Assembly: GCA_903830285.1 (NCBI GenBank)
Contig: CAIKTE010000112.1
Location: forward strand, 1 to 43,743
Reading direction: 5' to 3'
From: an uncultured Chitinophagaceae bacterium
GTDB lineage: Bacteria; Bacteroidota; Bacteroidia; Chitinophagales; Chitinophagaceae
DNA length: 43,743 nucleotides
Shown: positions 11,642-43,600 of the stretch, piece by piece
Position numbering within the stretch: the first letter of the stretch is position 1
Layout: each line of letters starts with the position of its first letter
Translations under genes and position numbers: made by a program
Notes under the pieces: generated by a model
Database searches by the model: none
What the model saw: the letters and a program-made list of their open reading frames with translations, nothing else
What the model was told of the DNA's origin: nothing

Positions 11642-11775
11642 GCTGCAAAGTTTACGATAAACTAGGTGAGAAAGAGCAGCCAGGCAGTAGAAATTATGCC
11701 TAACGCCATTTATTCGTTCTTTTTCATTCATCCCTAAAAAAGACCTCTTAACAATAAATTAATAATAAATATGCT

Positions 11776-11812
11776 GGAAACTTTGGTTACATAAATAGTT
11801 TCCTTAGTTTTG
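11776..11812 (+). promoter_or_regulatory. Efflux-operon promoter with overlapping inverted repeat
   Basis: A Bacteroidota-type promoter is directly readable: TTTG at 11782-11785 (the -33 box), 19 bp, then TAGTTTTG at 11805-11812 (the -7 box), about 20 bp before the tetR start at 11833. An inverted repeat GGAAACT (11776-11782) / AGTTTCC (11797-11803) flanks the spacer between the boxes. TetR-family proteins commonly bind such sites, so autorepression is inferred. Confidence 0.75.
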
Positions 11813-11832
11813 CGCTCCTTTTAATTACAACT

Positions 11833-12450
11833 ATGGAGGAAAGAATATTACTTAAAAGCCACGAACTGTTCATGCGTTACGGCGTTAGAAGCGTCAGTAT
11901 GGATGAGATCGCGGCACATCTGGGCATTTCGAAAAAGACCATTTATCAATATTATTCAGATAAAGATGCACTGGTGGAAGGTGTAGTGGGTATTGAGATC
12001 AACAAGAACGAGAAAGAGTGCAGTGCACAGCATCTGCTATCCGAAAATGCTGTACATGAAATATTCATTGCGTTAGATATGGTGCAAGAAATGCTTACGC
12101 ATATGAACCCGTCACTGATCTTTGACCTGGAAAAATATCACCCCAAAGCCTTCAAAAAATATAATGATCACAAGAATAAGTTCCTCTACGATATCATCAA
12201 AGACAATTTGGAAAGAGGTATGCAGGATGGTTTATACAGGAAGGAGCTCAAGATCGATATCATGGCAAGATTCAGATTGGCCAGCATGTTCCTGATCTTT
12301 AATCCTGAATTGTTTCCGCATAACAAGCACACCCTGTCGGAGATCCTGGACGAAGTGACTGATAATTTTTTATATGGCCTCACTACTCCAAAAGGGCAAA
12401 AACTGATCCAGAAATATAAATTACAAAGACTAAAAAAGCTTAGTGTATGA
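11833..12450 (+). CDS. TetR-family repressor of the efflux operon
   Basis: A 205-residue regulator. The N-terminal helix-turn-helix is clear: VRSVSMDEIAAHLGISKKTIYQYYSDKDAL, residues about 18-47. The C-terminal ligand-binding domain is helical and divergent, so the inducer cannot be predicted. It is the first gene of an operon whose next start codon (tolC) overlaps its stop by 4 bp (ATGA), giving tight coupling. The inverted repeat in the promoter is the likely operator; drug or metabolite binding would release repression of the three transporter genes. Confidence 0.9.
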   Translation: MEERILLKSHELFMRYGVRSVSMDEIAAHLGISKKTIYQYYSDKDALVEGVVGIEINKNEKECSAQHLLSENAVHEIFIALDMVQEMLTHMNPSLIFDLEKYHPKAFKKYNDHKNKFLYDIIKDNLERGMQDGLYRKELKIDIMARFRLASMFLIFNPELFPHNKHTLSEILDEVTDNFLYGLTTPKGQKLIQKYKLQRLKKLSV

Positions 12451-13787
12451 TAAAAATATCAACCAGTACAATAGGATTTATTGTCCTACTATTTATGGGC
12501 ACCGCTACTGCACAAAAAGCCACGGCTAAATATGCATTCAGCATTCAGCAATGTGTAGAGTATGCGTCAAAAAATAATGCGCAGGTACAGAATGCCTTGG
12601 TAGGTGTACAGATCCAGCAACAGGTCAATCGCGGCATAACAGCCATGGCCTTGCCAACAGTATCGGCAAATACCGGCGTAACAAATTATATAGACATTCC
12701 TACTTCATTACTACCCGGGCAAATTTTCGGACAGCCTGCAGGCACATATATTCCTGTTCAGTTTGGAACGAAGTTCAATGCCAATGCGGGTTTACAACTA
12801 CAACAAGTACTTTTTGACGGGCAGGTATTTGTTGGTTTGCGGGCAAGAGGCACTGCTATTGAATATCAAAAAAAGAATGTTGAAGTAACAGAAGAAAATA
12901 TCAAAGTTAACATTTACAAGGTCTACTATCAGCTGGTAGTGAGCAAAACACAGGTTGAAATACTCGATGCCAATATTGCACGTATAGAAAAATTGTTGCA
13001 CGATACCAGGGAATTATATAAAAACGGTTTTGCAGAAAAATTAGATGTCGATAAACTTTCTGTACAGCAGTCAAATCAGGAAACAGAAAAAACAAAAACG
13101 CTCAACAATATCGAGATCGGTTATCTCGGTCTGAAAACTTTAATGGGAATGCCTGTAAAAGACGAGCTTATTTTAACCGACAAAATAACAGAAGATCAAA
13201 TTAAAAACGGTTTGGCCGATACTGCTTACGAATACAGCCAAAGAAAAGAATTCCAGTATCTGAATATTGTAAAAAAACTGGATGATTATAATATTAAAAG
13301 ATATCAGCTTTCTTATTTTCCAACACTGTCATTAAGCGGATCGTACAGTAAGAATGCCCAACGTAATACTTTCGATTTTTTTGGTCCCGGTGATTGGTTC
13401 ACCACTTCTTATCTCGCGGTGAATATCGCTATACCCATCTTTGATGGTTTTTTAAAAGATTCAAAGGTCAAGCAATCCAGGTATGAATTACAGCAAACGG
13501 TCAATAATATTGATAATCTGAAACTTTCGATTGATAGTGATGTGGAACAGGCAAAGATCCGCTTTAGGTCTGCCATACTTACCATGGATAATCAAAAGAA
13601 GAATATGATCTTGGCCGAATCGGTTTATAATCAAACCAAAAAGAAATTCGAAGCCGGAACAGGCTCCAATACAGAGATCAGCACAGCACAAACAGATCTG
13701 ATCAGTGCACAAACAAATTATATAAGTGCAACTTATGATGCAGTCGTTGCTAAAGTTGATTATTACAAATCCATAGGAAAATTATAA
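12447..13787 (+). CDS. TolC-family outer-membrane efflux channel
   Basis: A 446-residue protein with a signal peptide (about residues 1-23, ending TATAQ). The two OEP domains show the usual pattern: FSIQQCVEYASKNNAQVQNA at the N-terminus, long helical coiled-coil sections about 135-215 and 345-425, and beta-strand segments between. It forms the trimeric exit duct for the adaptor and RND pump encoded next. It overlaps tetR by 4 bp; the adaptor starts 30 bp downstream. Length is normal. Confidence 0.93.
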   Translation: MIKISTSTIGFIVLLFMGTATAQKATAKYAFSIQQCVEYASKNNAQVQNALVGVQIQQQVNRGITAMALPTVSANTGVTNYIDIPTSLLPGQIFGQPAGTYIPVQFGTKFNANAGLQLQQVLFDGQVFVGLRARGTAIEYQKKNVEVTEENIKVNIYKVYYQLVVSKTQVEILDANIARIEKLLHDTRELYKNGFAEKLDVDKLSVQQSNQETEKTKTLNNIEIGYLGLKTLMGMPVKDELILTDKITEDQIKNGLADTAYEYSQRKEFQYLNIVKKLDDYNIKRYQLSYFPTLSLSGSYSKNAQRNTFDFFGPGDWFTTSYLAVNIAIPIFDGFLKDSKVKQSRYELQQTVNNIDNLKLSIDSDVEQAKIRFRSAILTMDNQKKNMILAESVYNQTKKKFEAGTGSNTEISTAQTDLISAQTNYISATYDAVVAKVDYYKSIGKL

Positions 13788-37203: not shown

Positions 37204-37293
37204 ATCGATCTACAATAAAAGAATACTTCGCCGTTTAATAGTAATGATTGTCACTCTGGCTCTAGAAGAGTGATATAAATATCGTTTAAGAAT

Positions 37294-37341
37294 TTCATGG
37301 TTCGAGTGCCTCACCATGACATCACAATTCTTAACTCAATC
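37294..37341. repeat. 48-bp direct repeat, copy A
   Basis: Starts TTCATGGTTCGAGTGCCTCA and ends TTAACTCAATC. Copy B at 37640-37687 differs by one base. The core TTCGAGTGCCTCA (37301-37313) is shared with 43540-43600 and, with one change, 3496-3544. Confidence 0.9.
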
Positions 37342-37401
37342 ATCAATAAAAGAAAAGCCCAGAGGGCTGAAATTTTGGTAGAAGTACAAAAGCATGAGTG
37401 G

Positions 37402-37513: not shown

Positions 37514-37639
37514 TTTGCATTTAATGATTTAGTCTACCAAAATATCGCCCCTCCCGGGTCTGTAATTAATTTTTCGCCAATGTTGCTGTTTTCAGCAACA
37601 TTGTATAATGTAAGAGTGACAAAAAAGTCGTTTCATAAA

Positions 37640-37687
37640 TTCATGGTTCGAGTGCCTCACCTTGACATCACAATTCTTAACTCAATC
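37640..37687. repeat. 48-bp direct repeat, copy B
   Basis: Same as copy A but for one base. Its last 6 bp include the stop codon (37682-37684) of the minus-strand START gene, so the repeat junction supplies the end of that reading frame. Confidence 0.9.
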
Positions 37688-38329
37688 TGCAATAAACGCA
37701 AACTTCGCATTCAGGTATTGCGGCAGCTGAATTTGTTCTCTTAATTTCAGGAATGTATCATAAGGGCCATTAGCAATGAAGAGGTTCAGGATCCAGGCTG
37801 GCACGCCGTCTCCCGGATCGATCTGTACACGATATTCTATTTTGAATTTTTTATTCGTAAGCGGTGTGATGATCCAGTTGGCCCTGGAATATCTGACACG
37901 AACAATATGTTTTTTATCGGGTATAAAATCATTTACTCCGTTTGCTTCTACCGATATTATTTTATTGCTGCTGTTTTGCGTAAGTTTTAAATGTGCGATC
38001 AGATCACGGTTTTGAAATGGCCAGGGTGCCTGAATTTCGGTATAGAAAAAAAGATCTGTGTTGCTGTTCTTTTGTAAGAGTTGAGATTTAGTAGCCTTAT
38101 AGACCCATTCGTAATGTTTGTTTACATCCAGCAACACCGCCACCAGTTGAGAGATCCTTCCATCATATTCGCATTCCACTTTTATTTCATCCACTTTAAA
38201 GTTCTTCGTTTTACGGGTGAAGACCTTAATGTTGTTCTTGTCTTTTTTCAATGACCAGTCCTCCTGCGCTTTTCCCGAAAATTGAAAAAGCAGGCAAACG
38301 AATACTAATATGAAAGAGCCATATCTCAA
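37682..38329 (-). CDS. Exported START/SRPBCC-domain protein
   Basis: A 215-residue protein with a signal peptide (1-21, ending SGKAQ). The remainder is a START-like lipid-binding fold: DWSLKKDKNNIKVFTRKTKN, HYEWVYKATKSQLL, PWPFQNRDLIAHL and VPAWILNLFIANGPYDTFLKLRE are typical of this group. It is likely to bind a hydrophobic ligand in the periplasm; the ligand is unknown. Its stop codon falls inside repeat copy B, so the native C-terminus may have been trimmed or replaced. Confidence 0.85.
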   Translation of the reverse strand: MRYGSFILVFVCLLFQFSGKAQEDWSLKKDKNNIKVFTRKTKNFKVDEIKVECEYDGRISQLVAVLLDVNKHYEWVYKATKSQLLQKNSNTDLFFYTEIQAPWPFQNRDLIAHLKLTQNSSNKIISVEANGVNDFIPDKKHIVRVRYSRANWIITPLTNKKFKIEYRVQIDPGDGVPAWILNLFIANGPYDTFLKLREQIQLPQYLNAKFAFIAD

Positions 38330-38558
38330 TCTTCGCTGTTTACTTGTTTATTAAATATACATGGTTTTGAAAGATGGCTCCATCAAATCCTATACACCGG
38401 ATCTTCCTCATTATAGCCCGGTCGAACAGCAGCCGAATCTCAGCCGAACAAATGATGCTGGATTTTTTGGGGAATGGATTCCCGAAAAAAACGACCTTTT
38501 CTACCCTTCCAAAAAAGAATTTTTATTTTTCTTTTCCTAGTGCCACAAGGGTTTCATT

Positions 38559-38668
38559 GGGGTGCATGCACCCCCTGCACCCCAAACGCTTTTGTTTTTG
38601 CATTTGCTTTGTTCCTGCAAATGTTCAACTGCAGTGAAGGTTTGCAAACCTGCCCGGCGCCGGGCAGG
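38559..38668 (+). promoter_or_regulatory. Cluster of five short palindromes upstream of the orphan gene
   Basis: In 110 bp: GGGGTGCATGCACCCC (38559-38574), CATTTGC/GCAAATG (38601-38607 and 38617-38623), ACTGCAGT (38628-38635), GGTTTGCAAACC (38639-38650) and CCTGCCCGGCGCCGGGCAGG (38649-38668); the last two share 2 bp. All are perfect. They precede the gene at 38706 by 38-147 bp and may be operators or a structured leader. The rest of 38330-38705 shows nothing. Confidence 0.7.
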
Positions 38669-38705
38669 CGGAATTCAATTTTATCAATTTTTAAAACCAT
38701 TTATC

Positions 38706-39266
38706 ATGGCAAAAAATAAAAACAATGTTGTGATCAAGGGCATGAGCGGCAAATTCGCAGATATGCTCGTTTTTTCGCAACGCTTCGGACAAACCATCGT
38801 GGGCAAAGTGCCCCTGAGGTCCGGAACATCCACGGCCGGTCAGCTGGCTGTGCGGGAAAAATTCTCACAGGCCACCATTTATGCAGTATCGGCCATCAGC
38901 GATGCGGCCACTAAAAAGGATTATGAGGATATGGCCATTCCCAGCCAAAGCGCTTATAATCTGGCCATCGCCGATTTCTTCAATGCGCCGCAGATCTTAT
39001 CGACCGACACGGCAGCTTACAGCGGCAATATCGGAGGCCTGATCAAAGTGAAGGCCAAAGACGATTTCCGTGTGGCTAAAGTAACGGTGATTATCAGCAA
39101 GGCGAATGGAACAGTAGTAGAACAGGGTGATGCCGTAAGCACAAACGGTGTTGACTGGGTCTATACGGCCACTATTGCCAATAGTGCTTATTCCGGTAAC
39201 AAAGTGAAAGTACAGGTGAAAGATCTGCCGGGTAATTTGACCGAAGCAGAATCTACCCTTGCTTAG
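38706..39266 (+). CDS. Orphan protein of unknown function, GC-richer than neighbours
   Basis: A 186-residue protein without signal peptide. It starts MAKNKNNVVIKGMSGKFADMLVF, a form (short basic start, then a G-(M/L)-SGK-x-x-D/N-x-(L/I)-VF segment) I have seen in Bacteroidota hypothetical proteins. Residues 1-95 are helical and basic to mixed; about 100-186 look like a beta-sandwich (VKAKDDFRVAKVTVIISKANG to KVQVKDLPGNLTEAE), possibly Ig-like. The reading frame continues 48 codons upstream, but the ATG at 38706 after the palindromes is preferred. Codons are richer in G and C than flanking genes, hinting at transfer. No function is assigned. Confidence 0.75.
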   Translation: MAKNKNNVVIKGMSGKFADMLVFSQRFGQTIVGKVPLRSGTSTAGQLAVREKFSQATIYAVSAISDAATKKDYEDMAIPSQSAYNLAIADFFNAPQILSTDTAAYSGNIGGLIKVKAKDDFRVAKVTVIISKANGTVVEQGDAVSTNGVDWVYTATIANSAYSGNKVKVQVKDLPGNLTEAESTLA

Positions 39267-39300
39267 AACAATTGCCCTTTTTTGATTCTTCCCAAAATAG

Positions 39301-39328
39301 ACTGCTCCCGAAAGGGGGCAGTTTATTT
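39301..39328 (+). terminator. Terminator of the orphan gene
   Basis: Stem ACTGCTCCC / GGGGGCAGT (39301-39309 and 39314-39322, one G-U pair), GAAA tetraloop, then TTATTT. It lies 34 bp after the stop. Confidence 0.85.
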
Positions 39329-39390
39329 GACAATTCTAATCGATACTAAAATAAAGAGCATATTCAATGATCAAACTCGTTTATAAAACA

Positions 39391-39499
39391 AAAAAAGCCC
39401 CGCTGTTTAAGCGAGGCCTGGGTTTTTGCTTTTCAACCTACCCGATTATGAGATTATTTTGTTGTTCTTAATCATTACCCCCCGATATTTCATAAGAAC
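39391..39499 (-). ncRNA. Candidate small RNA of about 110 nt
   Basis: A promoter (39504-39534) and a terminator bracket a non-coding stretch on the minus strand. The 5' part folds through TGTTCTTA / TAAGAACA (plus-strand 39463-39470 and 39493-39500) with a G6-containing loop. The terminator stem (39397-39404 with 39410-39417) has a U-G pair on the minus strand but a C-A mismatch on the plus strand, and its T run is on the minus strand, which fixes the direction. A 15-codon ATG frame near the 5' end is possible. No known RNA family is recognised. Confidence 0.6.
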
Positions 39500-39503
39500 A
39501 GAA

Positions 39504-39534
39504 CAAAAATATAAGGCCCTGGTTTTCTGTGCAA
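39504..39534 (-). promoter_or_regulatory. Promoter of the candidate small RNA
   Basis: On the minus strand: TTG (39534-39532), 20 bp, TATTTTTG (39511-39504). Boxes and spacing are identical to the tRNA-Lys promoter at 39721-39751. Confidence 0.7.
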
Positions 39535-39593
39535 GGGGGAAAACACCCATTTTTATGTAAGGATTTCATCAAGAGTTGGCAACCTTAAAATAA

Positions 39594-39626
39594 AAAGCCG
39601 CTAATACAGAATGTAAAAGCGGCTTT
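39594..39626 (-). terminator. Terminator of tRNA-Lys
   Basis: Nine-bp stem AAAGCCGCT / AGCGGCTTT (39594-39602 and 39618-39626) followed by a T-rich tail on the minus strand, 4 bp after the tRNA. Confidence 0.9.
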
Positions 39627-39630
39627 ACTG

Positions 39631-39704
39631 TGACCCCTCAGGGACTCGAACCCTGGACCTACTGATTAAGAGTCAGTAGCTCTAACCAGCTGAGCTAAGG
39701 AGTC
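39631..39704 (-). tRNA. tRNA-Lys (anticodon CTT)
   Basis: Minus-strand cloverleaf of 74 nt without encoded CCA. Acceptor arm GACTCCT / AGGGGTC (one G-T), D arm with AGCTCAGCTGGTTAGAGCT, anticodon loop CTCTTAA giving CTT, and the T arm with GGTTCGAGTCC. It has a clean promoter and terminator. Confidence 0.96.
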
Positions 39705-39720
39705 GTAAAAATTTGGACGG

Positions 39721-39751
39721 CAAAAATACGGCAATAGAGCTTTCCACACAA
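39721..39751 (-). promoter_or_regulatory. tRNA-Lys promoter
   Basis: On the minus strand: TTG (39751-39749), 20 bp, TATTTTTG (39728-39721), about 17 bp before the tRNA 5' end. It matches the Bacteroidota -33/-7 consensus. Confidence 0.8.
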
Positions 39752-39813
39752 TTATTCATTTTAAAAATCTGTTTCCTGTATAAAAGGCAGGAAGATTATT
39801 GTAATTTGAGTAG

Positions 39814-40527
39814 GTGAAGTCCCCCCTTCCATATCATATCCTGCCTCTTGGCGATCATGCACTGACCATTGAATTGGGTAACAGCATTGATGCATCTGTC
39901 AATCAAAATTGTATTGCCGTCTTTCACCAATTGAAACAGGCAGGACTTGCATTTGTCAAAGACATTATTCCGGCCTATGCTTCCGTAACAGTCGTATATG
40001 ATGTGACTGCCATCAGGAAAGAAAAGCCATCGGCCTATTTATTCATGAAAGAAAAACTGGAAATATTGTTGGCAGGGATGGACCTTGATCAACCGGTCTC
40101 GCATCGAAAAATAGAGATCCCGGTTTGCTATGATCTTTCACTGGGCATCGATCTGCAGGAAATGTCGCAAGAAAAAAACATGTCCATCGAAGAGATCATA
40201 CAAATGCATACAAACAAATCATATCGTGTATTCATGATCGGTTTCCTTCCCGGATTTGCCTATATGGGTTCGGTGGATGAAAAGATCATTACAGCAAGAC
40301 GGATACAGCCCCGAACTAATGTGGCTGCAGGAAGCGTGGGTATTGCAGGAGAACAAACGGGCATCTATCCTTTGGATTCTCCCGGGGGATGGAATATTAT
40401 CGGACAAACACCATTGAAATTATTTGATGCAAAAAGAGAGAATCCGGTGCTGCTGGAAGCAGGTGATATGGTAAGTTTTACTGCTATTGACATAAATGAG
40501 TTTCATATTATAAAAGGGTCCATTTGA
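39814..40527 (+). CDS. pxpB: 5-oxoprolinase subunit PxpB
   Basis: A 237-residue KipI/PxpB-family protein: YHILPLGDHALTIELG at the N-terminus, MIGFLPGFAYMGSVDEKI with the conserved GFxPGFxYL-type motif, and TGIYPLDSPGGWNIIG. PxpABC hydrolyses 5-oxoproline (pyroglutamate) to glutamate with ATP, a damage-repair and salvage role in the cytoplasm. It starts at GTG; no ATG fits. Its last codons overlap pxpC by 4 bp. First gene of a four-gene coupled operon. Confidence 0.95.
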   Translation: MKSPLPYHILPLGDHALTIELGNSIDASVNQNCIAVFHQLKQAGLAFVKDIIPAYASVTVVYDVTAIRKEKPSAYLFMKEKLEILLAGMDLDQPVSHRKIEIPVCYDLSLGIDLQEMSQEKNMSIEEIIQMHTNKSYRVFMIGFLPGFAYMGSVDEKIITARRIQPRTNVAAGSVGIAGEQTGIYPLDSPGGWNIIGQTPLKLFDAKRENPVLLEAGDMVSFTAIDINEFHIIKGSI

Positions 40528-43438: not shown

Positions 43439-43539
43439 TTTTTTTACAAGCGGTAGATTTTCCATGCTGCAGTGCTTGCGTCGCACTCTTGTACTGCATA
43501 ACTTTATTGAACAATAATAATTGAAAGAGTACTGTCATG

Positions 43540-43600
43540 CTGAGGCACTCGAAGCATGATTTAATAACCGACAATTAACTTCACCCTTCGAGTGCCTCAG
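43540..43600. repeat. Inverted repeat with CTGAGGCACTCGAAG arms
   Basis: Perfect 15-bp arms (43540-43554 and 43586-43600) containing the TTCGAGTGCCTCA core in both orientations. The left arm also sits inside CATGC / GCATG. It lies between convergent genes, like the copies at 3496 and 37294. The rest of 43439-43612 shows nothing else. Confidence 0.85.

Follow-up and report, generated by a model that had tools for sequence, protein, structure and literature searches.

A candidate small RNA gene with its own predicted promoter and terminator downstream of tRNA-Lys in a Chitinophagaceae genome

Introduction

A promoter that appears to serve no gene, followed after little more than one hundred nucleotides by a terminator, raises the question of what its product would be. 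Such an arrangement lies on the minus strand beside a tRNA-Lys gene in the stretch of 43,743 nucleotides analyzed here (the window), a contig of an uncultured Chitinophagaceae bacterium. A preliminary description of this DNA proposed that the promoter is arranged like that of tRNA-Lys and is of "tRNA grade", that a terminator whose stem pairs in full on the minus strand alone follows after about 110 nt, that a hairpin with a loop of six Gs lies between them, and that, since no gene is served, the transcript itself is the likely product. Our literature search found no paper on small RNAs or transcription start sites in Chitinophagaceae. The analysis below indicates that the unit is most likely an ordinary lineage-specific small RNA (sRNA) candidate of a known kind; the claim of a small RNA, read from sequence, is reasonable but unproven.

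Results

The candidate unit and its promoter

The candidate unit occupies positions 39534–39388 of the minus strand, where a promoter of the form TTG-N20-TATTTTTG is followed first by a hairpin, then by an A-rich linker and finally by an intrinsic terminator. The features of the locus are, in the direction of transcription:

39630–39704, minus strand: tRNA-Lys (CTT), upstream of the unit
39594–39626, minus strand: hairpin and T run after tRNA-Lys (inverted repeat I8)
39504–39534, minus strand: Bacteroidota sigma-A-type promoter TTG-N20-TATTTTTG, an exact pattern match
39388–39499, minus strand: predicted transcript of ~112 nt, placed by fold and promoter
39464–39499, minus strand: predicted 5' hairpin of 7 bp (GUUCUUA/UAAGAAC) with GGGGGG in its loop
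39446–39493, minus strand: 15-codon ORF MKYRGVMIKNNKIIS, its ATG 10 nt past the −7 box
39395–39419, minus strand: intrinsic terminator of 10 pairs, from fold and terminator scan
38703–39266, plus strand: convergent gene of 187 aa, downstream of the unit
37682–38329, minus strand: START-domain gene, ~1.06 kb past the unit and behind the convergent gene

The predicted first base, a G at 39499, follows from setting the promoter box at −12 to −5, the convention given for Flavobacterium psychrophilum in the available text of PMC9723704. Measured from the −7 box, the terminator stem starts at 84 nt and the T run is over at 114 nt, in agreement with the ~110 nt proposed earlier, and a discrete RNA of about that length is thus predicted from these features.

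TTG-N20-TATTTTTG has just two matches in the window, the unit promoter (39534–39504) and the tRNA-Lys promoter 217 bp upstream of it (39751–39721, both minus strand), so that the two arrangements are indeed the same; 0.21 matches are expected, and none of 100 shuffles reached two. When the pattern is relaxed to TANNTTTG the window holds four matches versus 1.38 expected, a number reached by 4 of 100 shuffles, and across the genome this looser form shows no enrichment over its reversed control (208 versus 259 matches), so the promoter pattern by itself proves little. To characterize tRNA promoters of this genome, 30 tRNA loci (of 32 tRNA matches) were reduced to 27 upstream regions by leaving out the window's tRNA-Lys, a locus at the end of its contig and a locus that follows another tRNA in tandem; TANNTTTG is present in 18 of these 27, and in 8 of the 18 it is TATTTTTG. 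A matrix built from the 18 promoters, with the TTG and spacing weight set by hand, ranked the unit promoter joint first with that of tRNA-Lys on both strands of the window, a tie that arises because the matrix scores only the 8-base box and the TTG, and both boxes are equal. The base that follows the TANNTTTG box is C in 17 of the 18 tRNA promoters (followed by A or G in 16 of those 17) and T in the unit, which thus lacks the typical start region of tRNA promoters. The comparison is probably with a real promoter, since both boxes of the tRNA-Lys promoter are kept in congeners G001, G002 and G004, and its −7 box is kept in G003, where the contig starts only a little way upstream. The unit therefore appears, by sequence, to have a housekeeping promoter of its own; the boxes match those of tRNA genes, but "tRNA grade" is too strong a term for it.

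Terminator and predicted RNA fold

On the minus strand the terminator stem has 10 pairs, two of them G-T, at −15.4 kcal/mol, and it runs into seven Ts at 39396–39390, the first two of which are its own last two bases. Read on the plus strand the same site forms 3 + 4 pairs with a mismatch at −11.1 kcal/mol, which is better than 200 of 200 shuffles; full pairing is thus confined to the minus strand, as had been described, but the structure on the plus strand is by no means a weak one. The unit terminator was also called on the minus strand by a simpler, laxer scan of 38300–39900; that scan gave no excess of terminator-like sites over shuffles (2 versus 2.6), and the hairpin after tRNA-Lys was not among them. 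The unit would on this evidence carry its own intrinsic terminator, on the same strand and within 50–300 nt of the promoter.

The 112-nt RNA is predicted to fold at −31.3 kcal/mol versus −20.4 for shuffles (z −3.85, none of 200 as good). Much of this is the terminator, because the first 87 nt, which exclude most of it, give a z of just −1.09, with 20 of 200 shuffles folding as well. The 40-nt 5' hairpin is more unusual (−9.2 kcal/mol, z −3.30, 1 of 200 as good). Its 7-bp stem at 39499–39464 is as first described, but the six Gs are not a plain 6-nt loop, since two of them are predicted to pair in an inner UAUC-GGGG-GGUA stem. For 127 nt of the region the minus strand gives z −3.72 (0 of 200) and the plus strand z −2.39 (5 of 200).

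Promoter–terminator pairs in the genome

Could such a layout arise by chance? Across 442 kb, made up of the window and a further 398 kb of this genome, the two strands together contain 33 strict promoters and 41 strong terminators. A strong terminator was defined by a minimum of 7 pairs, 5 being G-C; these limits were chosen after the unit's terminator had been seen. Three pairs lie 40–220 nt apart versus ~0.28 expected under independent placing, an expectation that is too low because promoters and terminators both gather between genes; one Markov-shuffled copy had no pair, though just 5 terminators. The window was sampled because of the unit, and outside it there are two pairs in 398 kb.

The first of these two sister units (locus L116, contig C265 of this genome, 11418–11574) has a TATTTTTG promoter, a leader peptide MIQTTHIHHHHLPIG and a strong terminator, and is followed by a gene at 11646–12542 that we take to be hisG-like. 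By its codons and position it looks like a his attenuator, although an Rfam search at gathering thresholds reported nothing at this his-type leader. The second (locus L097, contig C35, 16024–16285) has promoter, ORF and terminator flanked by larger ORFs; the ORF (MEETKKS..., 53 residues from the first ATG, 59 from a TTG) looks like a small membrane protein. As a calibration, then, a strict promoter with a strong terminator finds plausible short units in this genome, but both sister units look coding, so the layout marks short units and not necessarily non-coding ones.

The 15-codon reading frame

The sister units lead directly to a competing explanation, that the candidate unit is a tiny mRNA or an orphaned leader whose 15-codon ORF is translated, the genes downstream of the former attenuator having been lost or replaced by rearrangement of the block. 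An ATG ORF of 10–40 codons begins 6–16 nt past the box at 2 of the 33 strict promoters, and these are the candidate unit and the his leader MIQTTHIHHHHLPIG; in both the ATG lies 10 nt past the box, the ORF has 15 codons and a terminator stands behind it. This shared spacing and codon number favors the leader reading a little. The coincidence is not a strong one, since among the 340 TANNTTTG sites in the 442 kb such an ORF is found at 31 (9%). It begins exactly 10 nt past the box at 3 (0.9%), of which the third (locus L105), by its residues similar in look to an aromatic leader, was rejected since it lies inside an 801-aa antisense ORF.

The peptide itself argues against an attenuator: MKYRGVMIKNNKIIS has no run of one regulatory amino acid, and codons for Lys, Asn and Ile, such as it has, are to be expected in AT-rich DNA. 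A competing fold reaches −6.4 kcal/mol, a level that shuffles attain readily (70 and 81 of 200 as good); the terminator stands at −15.4. The coding pattern of the ORF's first seven residues was found in none of 393 other family genomes, and no gene for it to control lies downstream (below). Phe, Trp and Thr leaders do occur among the sub-threshold Rfam matches to the unit, at chance level (E 0.6, 0.99 and 4.9). Altogether we regard a translated or orphaned leader as unlikely, though a serious contender. It does weigh on the earlier proposal that the transcript itself is the product: with two other units of the same layout looking coding, and an ORF at his-leader spacing, that proposal is not established.

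Genomic context

Upstream, the hairpin at 39594–39626 is probably the terminator of tRNA-Lys itself and would separate that gene from the unit. Downstream, the convergent 187-aa product belongs to no Pfam, NCBIfam or PHROG family, and on the minus strand the first ORF past the unit to match a family is the START-domain gene, with only ORFs of 41–49 aa before it on that strand. No biosynthetic or tRNA-synthetase gene of the kind expected behind an attenuator is present downstream. By sequence the unit thus appears to serve no recognized gene, as the preliminary description had it, and its anatomy supports a stand-alone unit.

tRNA-Lys(CTT) is present in all four congeners (G001–G004), and in all four the DNA after it differs from that in the window and lacks the unit beside it. 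In G002 similarity runs through the tRNA-Lys terminator and then ends. In G004 the START-domain gene comes directly after tRNA-Lys, with 133 unmatched bases between the two, where the window has ~1.25 kb (38372–39620) that contain the 187-aa gene and the unit; this block may have been gained in the window or lost in G004. Compared with the congener loci (L015–L018), the stretch 38372–39620 is a variable site downstream of tRNA-Lys(CTT).

The 187-aa gene was not found to travel with the unit: none of six full-length homologue loci (from 10 match rows, the gene itself and three partial matches left out) has TTG-N18-22-TANNTTTG on the strand opposite the gene and no more than 600 nt from its end. 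No relatives of the 187-aa gene in viral contigs were confirmed. Three homologue loci from two other genera (L051, L053, L054) have, by eye, a recurrent small gene, LVERAQAETPQFFKKLRTIGL..., within 600 nt after the 187-aa homologue, which was not seen beside the gene in the window. Separately, a 91-nt repeat, 87% identical between its copies at 37266–37356 and 37612–37702, includes a T-arm-like GGTTCGAGTGCC; its 20-base core recurs with 2 mismatches at 43539–43558, GC-rich inverted repeats sit between the two copies, and similar sequence comes after the START gene in G004.

Searches for relatives

At gathering thresholds Rfam passed the window stretch for tRNA only and not for the unit. Eighteen matches at E up to 10 were listed (the leaders above, isrJ, AgvB and others), all far below their cut-offs (best 19.9 bits versus a cut-off of 55; lowest E 0.22), and were rejected as relatives, presumably being terminator look-alikes. 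In five genus genomes blastn returned the unit itself and 10 matches of 16–43 bases (E 0.02–0.8). In 394 family genomes, with at most two candidates scored in the genomes listed, it returned six others at E ≤ 0.001, each confined to the terminator (query bases 96–130); these were rejected and taken to be other genes' terminators because the DNA upstream of them is by eye unlike the unit (a coding end in some, a tRNA in one).

A covariance model (R1) was built from the one sequence without its terminator, since terminators would otherwise dominate. It found the unit itself only in 396 order genomes (E ≤ 0.01) and in 287 phylum genomes (E ≤ 0.001). In the 394 family genomes there were eight others at E ≤ 0.1 (best 0.017) where plain arithmetic predicts ~39 by chance, a loose comparison given strict filters and at most 11 candidates scored per genome; none of the eight has TANNTTTG in the 60 nt upstream by eye, and they are at chance level. 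These three samples overlap, each covering part of a larger group; strict filters applied to any search of more than 40 genomes, and a single-sequence model could miss distant relatives. With filters off, 15 loci beside tRNA-Lys or 187-aa gene homologues gave four weak matches. The strongest, in locus L023 of another genus, scores 19.3 bits (E 0.028) and lies upstream of the tRNA; one in congener locus L017 (14.3 bits, E 0.32) lies ~1.4 kb past the tRNA.

An exact 18-mer of the unit has one match in 84,980 genomes, where it falls on the start codon of an ORF of 311 aa in a Bacteroidales MAG that is histidine kinase-like by eye and also begins MKYRGV; it was rejected as a homologue and taken as chance because the rest differs and ~7 random matches are expected. 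An exact 19-mer has no match in viral contigs and the unit matches no plasmid or phage; a longer stretch compared with phages gave 20 listed matches (of 477 records), all in the tRNA part or its edges. One copy of the unit was found in its own genome. Thus the covariance search that had been suggested returned no relative, and conservation of the stem pairs or promoter was found in none of the searched genomes, an outcome that the preliminary description had named as one half of what would speak against its small RNA. The unit is most likely lineage-specific, in one genome only among those searched. Recent or lineage-specific sRNAs can lack conserved structure; nonetheless, that no relative with conserved structure was found lowers our confidence in an sRNA gene.

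The same observations are what a functionless or decaying unit would give, in which some transcript is made as a by-product of turnover of the DNA downstream of tRNA-Lys and is under no selection: it is found in a single genome, the DNA after tRNA-Lys differs in each of the four congeners, and the whole block is absent from G004. Against this, decay would blur the promoter, hairpin and terminator, yet all three are intact and stand in the right order and spacing, and a promoter–terminator pairing has a low probability of arising by chance. We judge a unit without function to be about as doubtful as a translated leader.

Discussion

The best explanation at present, which we put forward tentatively and as falling a little short of probable, is a stand-alone, lineage-specific sRNA gene of ~110 nt whose product most likely base-pairs with mRNAs in trans. 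RNA polymerase with the housekeeping sigma factor would start at ~39499 on the minus strand and make an RNA of ~110 nt, in which an A-rich linker, for the most part unpaired, joins a 5' stem-loop to the intrinsic terminator, where the RNA would be released; it could then pair with mRNAs through its loop or linker, in the manner of GibS and FopS. Promoter, hairpin and terminator are there as sequence features, and from them we infer that the unit may be transcribed into a stable, non-coding, base-pairing RNA. The pairing mechanism is suggested by what GibS and FopS, RNAs of the same kind, do, and not by evidence at this locus: target prediction against 288 start regions in the 442 kb (11% of the genome, with the first ATG as start and long bulges allowed) was no better than shuffles, 20 of 100 of which scored as low and 27 of 100 of which had as many duplexes below −18.

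What supports an sRNA gene is that its promoter boxes equal those of tRNA-Lys, that its terminator is fully paired on this strand only, that promoter–terminator pairs outnumber the chance expectation, that tRNA-Lys has its own hairpin and T run, and that no gene downstream is served. It is weakened by the failure to find a relative and its absence beside tRNA-Lys in congeners, by a fold that is unexceptional without the terminator and a null target test, and by sister units that look coding, with one of which it shares ATG spacing and ORF length. A compromise, a leader or attenuator freed from its operon by rearrangement and kept as a trans-acting RNA or peptide-plus-RNA, and thus a newborn sRNA, present in one species and lacking in the four congeners compared, is in our view improbable, more so than either a translated leader or a functionless unit. 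That the unit acts as 5' leader or attenuator to the START-domain gene, which is on the same strand and adjoins tRNA-Lys in G004, is highly implausible, because ~1.06 kb and the convergent 187-aa gene lie between terminator and START gene and because G004 lacks the unit.

Among known systems, the amino-acid leader attenuator, represented here by the his leader, shares with the unit a promoter, a 15-codon ORF, the 10-nt ATG spacing and a terminator; unlike it, the unit has no downstream operon and no regulatory codon run, and its alternative fold is weak. The Rfp "independent transcribed regions" of Flavobacterium psychrophilum are, like the unit, short independent Bacteroidota units, and strong structure was predicted for 18 of 45 non-antisense regions; as the available text has it, RNA data revealed them and homologues of many may exist within the genus (PMC9723704), whereas our unit is known from sequence and no relative was found. 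Precedent from Bacteroides also favors an sRNA gene: by the account available in PMC7366714, Northern blots validated 9 of the 11 sRNA candidates put to the test, and 8 of those 9 combined a start site with an intrinsic terminator. GibS and FopS of Bacteroides thetaiotaomicron differ from the unit in having a single-stranded 5' seed, where the unit has a hairpin from its predicted first base, and in having relatives (14 copies for FopS), where the unit has one copy and neither a relative found nor an Rfam match. They resemble it in being short (145 nt for GibS) and in having their own promoter (a canonical sigma-ABfr promoter for FopS) and intrinsic terminator, and they pair with translation start regions of mRNAs, as far as the available parts of PMC7366714 and PMC11697453 describe them. 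If it is transcribed, the unit would join them as one more lineage-specific intergenic sRNA in Bacteroidota, at a site that varies between congeners, and would be a modest example of small-RNA origin that changes no concept.
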